Shown here: piece after piece, positions 30,674-32,873 of the stretch | Layout of the letters: every line of letters begins with the position of its first letter | Numbering within the stretch: the first letter of the stretch is position 1 | Assembly (NCBI RefSeq): GCF_005670685.2 | Contig: NZ_CP062008.1 | Coordinates: 2,790,001-2,854,000 of the forward strand | Source of the DNA: Mycolicibacterium mucogenicum DSM 44124 | Lineage (GTDB): Bacteria > Actinomycetota > Actinomycetes > Mycobacteriales > Mycobacteriaceae | Length of the DNA: 64,000 nucleotides | Reading direction: 5' to 3' | Position numbers and translations under genes: made by a program | The notes under the pieces: model-generated | What the model was told of the DNA's origin: nothing | The model's input: only the letters and a program-made list of their open reading frames with translations | The model's database searches: none

Positions 30674-31408
30674 TCAGCGGGCGGCCTTCGAGAACCACTT
30701 GGTCTTGATCAGCCACGAGTGCGCGGACGCCAGTGCGAAGACCCCGCCGCACATGCAGGCGAAGACCCACACGAACTTGCCGTCCTCGAGTGGCTGCAGC
30801 TCCGGTACGAGCGATGTCAGGATGCGGGTGGCGCAAGCCAGGATGCCGCTGCCGGTGGCGAACAGGTAGATGTTGGCGATGCGCCGCGAGTCTTCGTTCT
30901 TGCGCAGCACCAGCAGGGCGCGCGCACCGAACACCAGCAGGTAGGTCAGCGTGCCGCACAGCACGAGCCAGTAGGCGGCCAGCCAGCCGTCGGTGGGCAT
31001 GGTGAACAGGTCGGGGGAGTACTCGCGTCCGGCGACGCTCATCGAGAACAGCGCCAGCAGGATCGGGATGCACAGGGTGGCGGGCCGCTCGATGTACTGC
31101 GTGAACATCTTCTGCATCGCCGAGTCGTCGGCGAGGCGGCCGATGGCGTTGTAGACGATGGCCGACGCGGCCACGATGTAGCAGTCGTGGCCCAGGTAGG
31201 CGGGCAGGTTCCAGACGCCGGTCATCGAGTGGATGGCACGGCCCAGCGTGTCGGCGGCCATCGGGGACATCAGGGCGACGGCCGCGGCCTGCAGCGCGAT
31301 GTTGAGGGTCGCCGCGACTTCCCAGCGGCAGGACCACGTGACGCGACGGATCCAGAGACTCCACGCCATGCAGGCGAGAGTGATCGTGATGAGAAATGTG
31401 AGAGCCAT
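30674..31408 (-). CDS. Seven-helix integral membrane protein of unknown function
   Basis: A 244-residue protein that is almost wholly membrane: about seven hydrophobic segments beginning MALTFLITITLACMAWSLWI and ending GGVFALASAHSWLI. I recognise no family motif. It lies 57 bases downstream of the small HTH gene on the same strand and is probably co-transcribed with it, suggesting the regulator controls or senses through this protein. An ATG at 31408 starts directly before the first helix. Alternatives such as a transporter or anti-sigma-like sensor cannot be judged from sequence. Confidence 0.7.
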   Translation of the reverse strand: MALTFLITITLACMAWSLWIRRVTWSCRWEVAATLNIALQAAAVALMSPMAADTLGRAIHSMTGVWNLPAYLGHDCYIVAASAIVYNAIGRLADDSAMQKMFTQYIERPATLCIPILLALFSMSVAGREYSPDLFTMPTDGWLAAYWLVLCGTLTYLLVFGARALLVLRKNEDSRRIANIYLFATGSGILACATRILTSLVPELQPLEDGKFVWVFACMCGGVFALASAHSWLIKTKWFSKAAR

Positions 31409-31465: not shown

Positions 31466-31819
31466 TCAGAGCGGCGGTGCATCAGCACGTCGCGTCATTT
31501 CCGACAATTTCGTGGCGCGTTTGGGGACCGCCGGCGCCGCCGTGGCAACCGCGAGGGGTGCCGACTGGATGTAGCTGATGACCTCGTCGTGGCTCATCAG
31601 ACCGAACCGAACTTGCAGGTCGGGGTAGCTCAACCGGAAGTGATCGGCCACCAGGCGGAGCTCTTCCGCGTTGGGATAGTCGGCCTCTTTGATCCGCCGG
31701 TAGTACGTACTGCTCGACGTTCCGAGCGCACCGTAGATCTCCCTCGCTTCGACATCGCCGTCGAAGATGTAGTCGAGCAGCGCCTTGAGCTGTCTGCCGT
31801 TCTGGTCTGTTCGGGGCAC
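31466..31819 (-). CDS. Small helix-turn-helix regulator
   Basis: A 117-residue protein with a compact helical N-terminal domain: REIYGALGTSSSTYYRRI looks like the helix-turn-helix, and the following AEELRLVADHFRLSYPDLQV resembles the last helices of XRE/phage-repressor-like domains common in mycobacteria. The C-terminal third is Ala/Pro-rich and probably disordered. The GTG start at 31819 lies six bases after a TATCGT -10 hexamer on the same strand, so the mRNA is probably leaderless. A perfect palindrome begins at its -35 position, consistent with autoregulation. Ligand and regulon unknown. Confidence 0.7.
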   Translation of the reverse strand: MPRTDQNGRQLKALLDYIFDGDVEAREIYGALGTSSSTYYRRIKEADYPNAEELRLVADHFRLSYPDLQVRFGLMSHDEVISYIQSAPLAVATAAPAVPKRATKLSEMTRRADAPPL

Positions 31820-31825
31820 TCTGCC

Positions 31826-31860
31826 ACGATAGACCCTTCCCCCCTTTGGTTGCTAGCAAC
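31826..31860 (-). promoter_or_regulatory. Promoter and palindromic operator of the HTH regulator gene
   Basis: On the minus strand TATCGT (31831-31826) is a TANNNT -10 element six bases from the GTG start. Seventeen bases further upstream begins the perfect 12-bp palindrome GTTGCTAGCAAC (31849-31860), covering the -35 position. The layout is that of a repressor site. Sequence features are seen; binding is inferred. Confidence 0.55.
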
Positions 31861-31917
31861 TGTTTTTGCGACACATAAGCCGTAATTGACATGGGCGTCA
31901 CAGTTTCGGGAGCTATG

Positions 31918-31946
31918 TCCCAAATTTGGGAATCGTGTTGTAGTGT
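31918..31946 (+). promoter_or_regulatory. Promoter and palindromic operator of the condensation-like gene
   Basis: The perfect 14-bp palindrome TCCCAAATTTGGGA (31918-31931) covers the -35 position of a plus-strand promoter whose -10 is TAGTGT (31941-31946), 17 bases from the palindrome's left end. The ATG at 31954 follows the -10 by seven bases, so the transcript is probably leaderless. The palindrome sequence differs from that at 31849-31860 on the divergent side. Confidence 0.6.
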
Positions 31947-31953
31947 GCATCAC

Positions 31954-32598
31954 ATGACTGTTGCGTACGCCGGTGAGATCGGTGCCGTTCTCCCTTCTGC
32001 TGCTGCGGCGACGATGCACGTCGCCGACTACGAGTTCGGCGGTTACGACACCGCCGGTACTGCGGTCGACATGCGGCGCCTCGAGGCCCCGCTGTCGCCG
32101 GTGATCACGGCCGAGCTCGAGGGCGCGGTCGAATACCTGGGAGTCGATGCCGAGGTGCTGCTGATCGCGGCGCTCGGCCGCGCGATCGAGCGCGTGATCG
32201 GACCCGGCCGAGCTGCTGTCGACGTCGCCGCAGCGAAGGAACGCTCCGGTGGCGGACTCGCCGTGATCCGCCGGGTCGAGGTCGACGCGGTCTCGGCATC
32301 GGACGTCGACGCCACCGCGATGGTGCAGACGGTGCGCGGCGCCCTGGCGGCCGCCACCGCCGAGCCGAAGGACGTTGCCGACGTGTTGCTCAGTTACGGC
32401 ATGGCCGCGATCGACGGCGAGCACCCGGGCCCGGCGCACACGCTCGAGGTCCGCGCGTTCCACGCCGACGATGCCTTGCACGTCGACTGGTGGTACGCCC
32501 GCCATCAGTTCGAGCCCTACACCGTCGAGGAACTCGCCGAGCAGTTCTCCTACGCCGTCATCGAGCTCGCCTCGGAGGCCATGCCGGTCGCGGAGTAG
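31954..32598 (+). CDS. Orphan C-terminal half of an NRPS condensation-type domain
   Basis: A 214-residue protein resembling only the second half of a condensation domain: LSPVITAELEGAV and EVLLIAALGRAIERVIG match the donor-side helix-strand region, and LSYGMAAIDG, HTLEVRAFHADDALHVDWWYA and YTVEELAEQFSYAVIEL match the closing segment. The first half with HHxxxDG is missing and is not encoded in the upstream DNA, so it should not be a condensing enzyme by itself. The ATG at 31954 is fixed by the promoter position; a frame opening at 31891 would run through the operator. Divergent from the HTH gene, upstream of the ileS T-box. It may be a partner or scaffold of an acyltransferase; function unknown. 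Confidence 0.65.
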   Translation: MTVAYAGEIGAVLPSAAAATMHVADYEFGGYDTAGTAVDMRRLEAPLSPVITAELEGAVEYLGVDAEVLLIAALGRAIERVIGPGRAAVDVAAAKERSGGGLAVIRRVEVDAVSASDVDATAMVQTVRGALAAATAEPKDVADVLLSYGMAAIDGEHPGPAHTLEVRAFHADDALHVDWWYARHQFEPYTVEELAEQFSYAVIELASEAMPVAE

Positions 32599-32635: not shown

Positions 32636-32641
32636 CGCTGC

Positions 32642-32873
32642 ATTCGCATCGATCCGGCCATCACCGGGGAGCATTCGGAAGAACGGCTGCGGCTCAGTAG
32701 AACCGAACGGGTAGGCCCGTCATCGCCTGTAGTTGAGCGGCGCACACGTGCGACCTTCCGGGGTCGGCTGCGCGCAAGCGGGGTGGTACCGCGGCGCTCG
32801 CGTCCAGACGCGAGATCGTCGTCCCCGTGCCTGGACTGAGCACCTGTTGGTGCTGACGGCACTGGAGACCGAC
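32642..32873 (+). ncRNA. T-box riboswitch of ileS, ultrashort Stem I, translational type
   Basis: The leader carries the T-box GGGTGGTACCGCGG (32781-32794), the sequence that pairs with the uncharged tRNA acceptor end. Near the 5' end a small hairpin, CCGG-CCATCA-CCGG (32654-32667), presents ATC, an isoleucine codon, in its loop: the expected specifier in the ultrashort Stem I of actinobacterial ileS T-boxes. Further helices: 32797-32814 (CTCGCGT/ACGCGAG) and a two-part hairpin 32827-32862 (GTGCC/GGCAC outside, AGCACC/GGTGCT inside) just before the ribosome site GGAG (32864-32867). No terminator is seen, so control is probably at translation: uncharged tRNA-Ile should free the ribosome site. 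Exact pairing of the sequestering helix was not resolved. Confidence 0.88.

Follow-up and report, generated by a model that had tools for sequence, protein, structure and literature searches.

Do one or two regulators act in a short gap between divergent genes whose promoters each carry a perfect palindrome, and where would such an arrangement come from? The question is raised by Mycolicibacterium mucogenicum DSM 44124, in the window analyzed here, a stretch of 64,000 nucleotides (NZ_CP062008.1, positions 2,790,001 to 2,854,000, forward strand). There, a helix-turn-helix (HTH) gene (31466..31819, minus strand, 117 amino acids) and a condensation-like gene (31954..32598, plus strand, 214 amino acids) point away from each other. 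An earlier note on this DNA proposed a switch with two unrelated operator types. Our comparisons lead us instead to consider it likely that the locus is a chromosomally fixed mycobacteriophage immunity control region, in which the HTH protein represses the condensation-like gene through an operator, O1, and its own operon through a second operator, O2.

The layout described in the earlier note can be read directly in the sequence. Both palindromes, GTTGCTAGCAAC at 31849-31860 and TCCCAAATTTGGGA at 31918-31931, are perfect, and on both divergent sides a TANNNT hexamer lies 6 or 7 nucleotides upstream of a start codon. On the HTH side (minus strand) the predicted −10, TATCGT (31831-31826), is followed after 6 nucleotides by the GTG at 31819 and is separated from GTTGCTAGCAAC by 17 nucleotides. 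On the condensation-like side (plus strand) the predicted −10, TAGTGT (31941-31946), is followed after 7 nucleotides by the ATG at 31954, and the spacer is 17 if the −35 hexamer is taken as 31918-31923. A TANNNT 5-9 nucleotides upstream of the HTH start is found in all 66 loci, against 301 of 36,667 ATG or GTG triplets in the same loci, and the sequence supports the idea of a divergent switch with leaderless-looking promoters. Palindromes alone are ordinary in the window, which holds 52 perfect ones of at least 12 bp against 39.05 expected from a first-order Markov simulation. For a 134-bp stretch of the same composition, the simulated chance is 0.028 for a palindrome of at least 12 bp, 0.0075 for one of at least 14 bp, and 0.0003 for two palindromes of which one has at least 14 bp.

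The proteins point to phages. Pfam and NCBIfam hold nothing for the HTH protein or for the membrane protein encoded beside it (30674..31408, minus strand, 244 amino acids), and both proteins fall into phage families. The HTH protein matches phrog_1746, a mycobacteriophage immunity-repressor family (E 7.6e-16), and the adjoining membrane protein matches phrog_950 (E 4.9e-74). A tblastn search with the HTH protein found relatives in 197 phage records, every one a mycobacteriophage; 23 cover 80% or more of the query, and identity is below 60% throughout. The best predicted viral folds include the Gaia regulator (E 7.6e-8) and the MalagasyRose immunity repressor (E 1.6e-6). Relatives of the membrane protein occur in 433 mycobacteriophage records, three of them at 60-80% identity; identities are 52% to MalagasyRose gp43, 56% to prophiGD03-1 gp5 and 60% to Nebkiss gp67.

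The operators were compared in 84 regions from orthologous loci, which reduce to 75 distinct ones. O1 (TCCCAAATTTGGGA, 31918..31931), which overlies the predicted −35 on the condensation-like side, has the family form TCCCA-N4-TGGGA, which is exact in 73/75 regions; the two exceptions, L062 and L063, have a single arm mismatch each. In 72 of the 73 exact regions O1 is followed, at an allowed spacing, by a TANNNT and then a start codon. At the HTH promoter lies O2 (TCCCCCCTTTGGTT, 31838..31851; family form TCCC-N5-TGG), a degenerate copy of the O1-type operator, and the pattern [TC]CCC-N5-TGG recurs near this promoter in 54/75 regions. Between O2 and O1 stands a third conserved block, O3 (ATTGACA-N5-GTCACAGTTTCGGGA, 31885..31911; family form ATTGACA-N5-GTCACAGTTTTGGGA). 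Its core pattern is present in 70/75 regions, and its column profile leaves out four rows in which O3 was not where expected. The stretch between O2 and O3 is poorly conserved in sequence, and the two start 48 bases apart in 50/50 regions with both patterns. O3 and O1 start 32 bases apart in 68/69, the exception being L024, where the HTH gene is broken. The hexamer ATTGAC was also seen in several phage control regions.

The HTH protein, a member of a repressor family, is supported as the candidate regulator of one palindrome, and conservation sets the two palindromes apart. GTTGCTAGCAAC (31849..31860) overlaps the end of O2 and occurs in only 8/75 regions of a single clade; its carriers, L006 and L036-L042, all belong to the loci whose HTH is most similar to that of the window (87% or more). 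A search for further copies, suggested in the same note, returned a single occurrence of GTTGCTAGCAAC in the 6.1-Mb genome and likewise one of TCCCAAATTTGGGA, with no one-mismatch site and three two-mismatch sites for the latter. Two unrelated operator types are not supported. Because O1 is near-universal, a weaker O1-type site lies at the HTH promoter and GTTGCTAGCAAC is confined to one clade, a single repressor acting at two sites of the same kind appears likelier than two unrelated operators.

The most probable alternative keeps the HTH protein at O1 and, for the clade of the window alone, places a second, unrelated protein at GTTGCTAGCAAC of the HTH promoter. We regard it as unlikely. All 12 bases of GTTGCTAGCAAC are kept in L041, where the flanks are identical at merely 6/20 and 12/30 positions, and the palindrome does not resemble TCCCA-N4-TGGGA; in L042 the flank after it is identical at 19/30 positions, but the one before it at 20/20. 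Against a second regulator stand the absence of GTTGCTAGCAAC from 67/75 regions, its single genomic copy and its overlap with O2. Moreover, at the alignment columns of its right arm, GCAAC, the same five bases occur in 13/65 other scored regions (19/71 including the palindrome's own six). From the alignment, GTTGCTAGCAAC may be a second, clade-specific element; under the one-repressor model it would be a clade-specific addition beside a decayed O2.

Do phages carry the same arrangement? We compared 17 phage regions, six picked by repressor match (L157-L162) and 11 by membrane-protein match (L163-L165, L201-L208). A membrane-protein relative lies beside the repressor in 6/6 of the former, on the same or the opposite strand; a same-strand upstream gene is present in 11/11 of the latter, annotated as a repressor or immunity protein in 10/11. 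A 14-bp site with at least 4/5 arm pairs stands 9-10 nucleotides upstream of a TANNNT in 6/9 phage control regions; this TANNNT is 7-8 nucleotides before a start codon, and four of the six sites have 5/5 arm pairs. For 8/9 phage repressors there is a start with TANNNT 6-7 nucleotides upstream. Predicted 14-bp operators with a leaderless early promoter (P_R) were noted in L157, L158 (CrimD), L159, L160, L162 and L163. The CrimD site, TTTGGCAGATGTTCCCGATTTCGGGAC...TAGCGT, is close to TTTTGGCAGATGTGTCCCATTTCTGGGAC...TAGCGT of chromosomal locus L008. Phrappuccino has two 5/5 sites, 17 and 104 nucleotides from the repressor start, and chromosomal O1 lies at 101-103 nucleotides in three listed orthologs. 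Other 14-mers of like geometry have the arms TCCGG (L105), TCCAA (L032), TCCAC (Nebkiss), TTCCA (L034) and TCGCA (MalagasyRose); the 14-mers are TCCAATTAATTGGA in L032, TTCCATTTTTGGAA in L034, TCCGGTTTTCCGGA and TCCGGAAAACCGGA in L105, and TCCCGATTTCGGGA in CrimD. Since 14-mers of this geometry run through the family and O1 itself is conserved, we assign O1 provisionally to the HTH protein. The locus resembles the Cluster K-type and related immunity regions of Fionnbharth (gp46-gp47), CrimD (gp42-gp43), MalagasyRose (gp43-gp44) and Nebkiss (gp67-gp68): the repressor is of the same family and has a membrane protein beside it, the divergent promoters look leaderless, and a 14-bp site lies at P_R, with promoters and operator judged from sequence.

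Several observations weigh against this interpretation. No qualifying P_R site was found in 3/9 phage regions (prophiGD03-1, Toto and Baudelaire), and CrimD has no leaderless repressor start in the scan, which permitted several gaps and starts, so that single 4/5 sites could be chance. The P_R start agrees with the annotated one in just 3/6 cases (Fionnbharth, CrimD and Nebkiss), the repressor start in just 4/8 (Phrappuccino, Nebkiss, Toto and Baudelaire). The sites in paralogs were selected visually for their position, with other palindromes present as well, and no site is convincing in most paralogs (for example L104, L106, L130, L027 and L028). The window's own O2 copy, TCCCCCCTTTGGTT, is poor, and the O2 pattern was not found in 21/75 regions. 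O3 (ATTGACA-N5-GTCACAG) is almost as conserved as O1 and falls outside what repression through O1 and O2 explains. The membrane protein was not detected in 3/65 loci (L063, L064 and L098, the last cut by a contig end), and its tree, which joins the chromosomal and the phage members in a single unresolved fork, does not tell transfer from phage to host apart from the reverse.

The locus itself is part of the chromosome. An ortholog search of 61 genomes found 18 close HTH relatives besides the window, and scanning named genomes for close relatives yielded 65 loci, all titled as Mycobacteriaceae. The environmental species M. llatzerense (L038) is represented, whereas no M. smegmatis record is included. 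The condensation-like gene was detected in 65/65 of these loci and ileS in 64/65, the miss being L047, a 5.5-kb contig; the HTH gene, the condensation-like gene and ileS occur together in 64/65, and the membrane gene in 62/65. A relative of the window's acyl-AMP ligase lies somewhere in the fetched flank of 27/65 loci, one at 26% identity only. Among 37 genomes of the genus, that of the window included, 19 hold the HTH gene (E 1e-40 or better), and the same 19 hold a condensation-like match in a frame of fewer than 400 codons. Some 170 kb separate the locus from the nearest PF00589 (tyrosine integrase) match, in a search that did not extend to serine integrases or attP. Because of this distance, and because the window has no tRNA, the membrane protein is single-copy in its genome and the condensation-like gene has no phage match (E up to 1), the locus is not an intact prophage. 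It differs from the phage immunity regions in three respects: no tyrosine integrase is near, it sits beside ileS, and where a divergent cro, excise or other early lytic gene would be expected the condensation-like gene stands instead.

We infer that the cassette passed from phage to host. The opposite direction, in which phages captured an old chromosomal regulator and membrane-protein pair as an immunity cassette, seems to us improbable. It draws on the unresolved fork of the membrane-protein tree and on the breadth of the HTH gene, found at E 1e-30 or better in 147/297 genomes of an even sample of the genus. Against it, the phage members have longer branches and are spread over several phage genera, 13/17 phage stretches have an annotated integrase, and the condensation-like gene is without a phage match.

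What, then, would the control region control? The predicted model of the condensation-like protein (predicted local distance difference test score, pLDDT, 84.0) matches in Foldseek the C-terminal half of nonribosomal peptide synthetase (NRPS) epimerization and condensation domains, with the tyrocidine epimerization domain at E 4.3e-10, and Pfam and NCBIfam add a weak condensation/NRPS-para261 match at its C-terminus. Whereas those domains have both halves of the fold, this protein is a stand-alone half without the N-terminal one. The HHxxxDG motif is located in the N-terminal half of the condensation fold, and for the half domain, binding of another protein or of a carrier would be the most plausible role. 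The gene is under purifying selection, with pairwise ratios of nonsynonymous to synonymous substitution rates (dN/dS) of 0.085-0.264 in 16 pairs; those of the HTH gene are 0.023-0.046 in seven pairs. Within the genus, wider relatives belong to long open frames, often about 1500 codons in length, whose C-terminal domain is the related part. In one such frame, L197, the part that was read has carrier and condensation domains above the Pfam cut-offs and a weak acyltransferase match, and the frame of a DrrA-type ABC ATPase comes next, an arrangement that we take to be similar to PpsE-drrA. A longer, 425-amino-acid condensation-like protein stands behind the same promoter in M. aurum (L089).

With the membrane protein and repressor on one side and a leaderless P_R-type promoter on the other, we envisage that the HTH protein, probably as a dimer, would occupy O1, covering the −35 of the P_R-like promoter, and so keep expression of the condensation-like gene low. 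Occupation of the weaker O2 at its own promoter would limit the operon of the HTH and membrane proteins. A host gene for half a condensation/epimerization domain would thus stand in the place of phage early genes, and the control region probably controls this host gene instead of viral genes. A short C-terminal tail such as DAPPL (window 31466-31500) ends 64/64 complete chromosomal HTH orthologs and, by a strict count, 7/17 phage repressors beside the membrane protein (L157-L165, L201-L208). We further speculate, with low confidence, that the locus is a domesticated immunity switch whose repressor still reads phage-style operators: a matching phage would be silenced, or would titrate the repressor, turning on the condensation-like gene and changing the cell envelope. 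In this scenario the C-terminal tail of the repressor may connect it to the membrane protein, which would serve as a sensor. If the overall model holds, a phage decision switch, comprising repressor, membrane partner, both promoters and operators, has been retained as an ordinary piece of the chromosome, with a host gene as its new target. It would supply a testable predicted operator for this repressor family and a ready system for asking whether domesticated repressors protect against phages.

The earlier note knew of no description of this circuit, yet its layout is that of mycobacteriophage repressor and early-gene regions; for the chromosomal, rewired form, word searches of the open-access literature found no description. 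In the excerpted text on phage BPs (PMC4557955), the repressor gp33 has operators in the divergent region, at both the early promoter (P_R) and the repressor promoter (P_rep), and these comprise a good palindrome and a half site of variant sequence, as here. BPs differs in its 12-bp sites, CGACATATGTCG, in an O_R between the −10 and −35, and in an attP inside the repressor gene; the likeness drawn here is one of layout. According to the excerpt on Adephagia (PMC11373665), repressor 43 and the adjacent seven-transmembrane gene 42 are both expressed at a low level in the lysogen, and SigA-like promoters were not readily identified bioinformatically in the gap between repressor and early genes. 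Further background is found in papers on cluster K phages (PMC3203893) and Yasnaya_Polyana (PMC12699233); the excerpted paper on tRNA-dependent lysogeny (PMC10865867) holds nothing on the operator.

The same Adephagia excerpt bears on another model, which casts the HTH protein as an antitoxin of the Xre type and the membrane protein as its toxin. Both gp43 and gp42 are listed there (PMC11373665) as inhibitory or toxic to M. smegmatis, and 22/39 family members weakly match Pfam Xre-like-HTH (best E 0.00087). But both overproduced Adephagia proteins inhibit, the would-be antitoxin too; none of the three proteins matched a PADLOC defence-system model (E up to 0.1); and the operator with the strongest conservation lies on the condensation-like side. 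Such a pair is very unlikely. That the palindromes are functionless products of chance, as the 52 in the window might suggest, is scarcely credible given O1 in 73/75 regions with fixed spacing, an argument that covers O1 and not GTTGCTAGCAAC.

Some minor observations concern the surroundings and the wider family. The leader of ileS (window 32640-32870), which we take to be T-box-like in look, has no Rfam match at the gathering score. In L024 (G002), from a 4.0-Mb genome, the HTH ortholog has internal stops and the control region is altered. Distant HTH relatives (L131, L132, L133, L034 and L152-L154) are paired with divergent genes of other kinds, which on visual inspection look secreted or PE-like, and their loci hold near-palindromes of their own at a similar distance.
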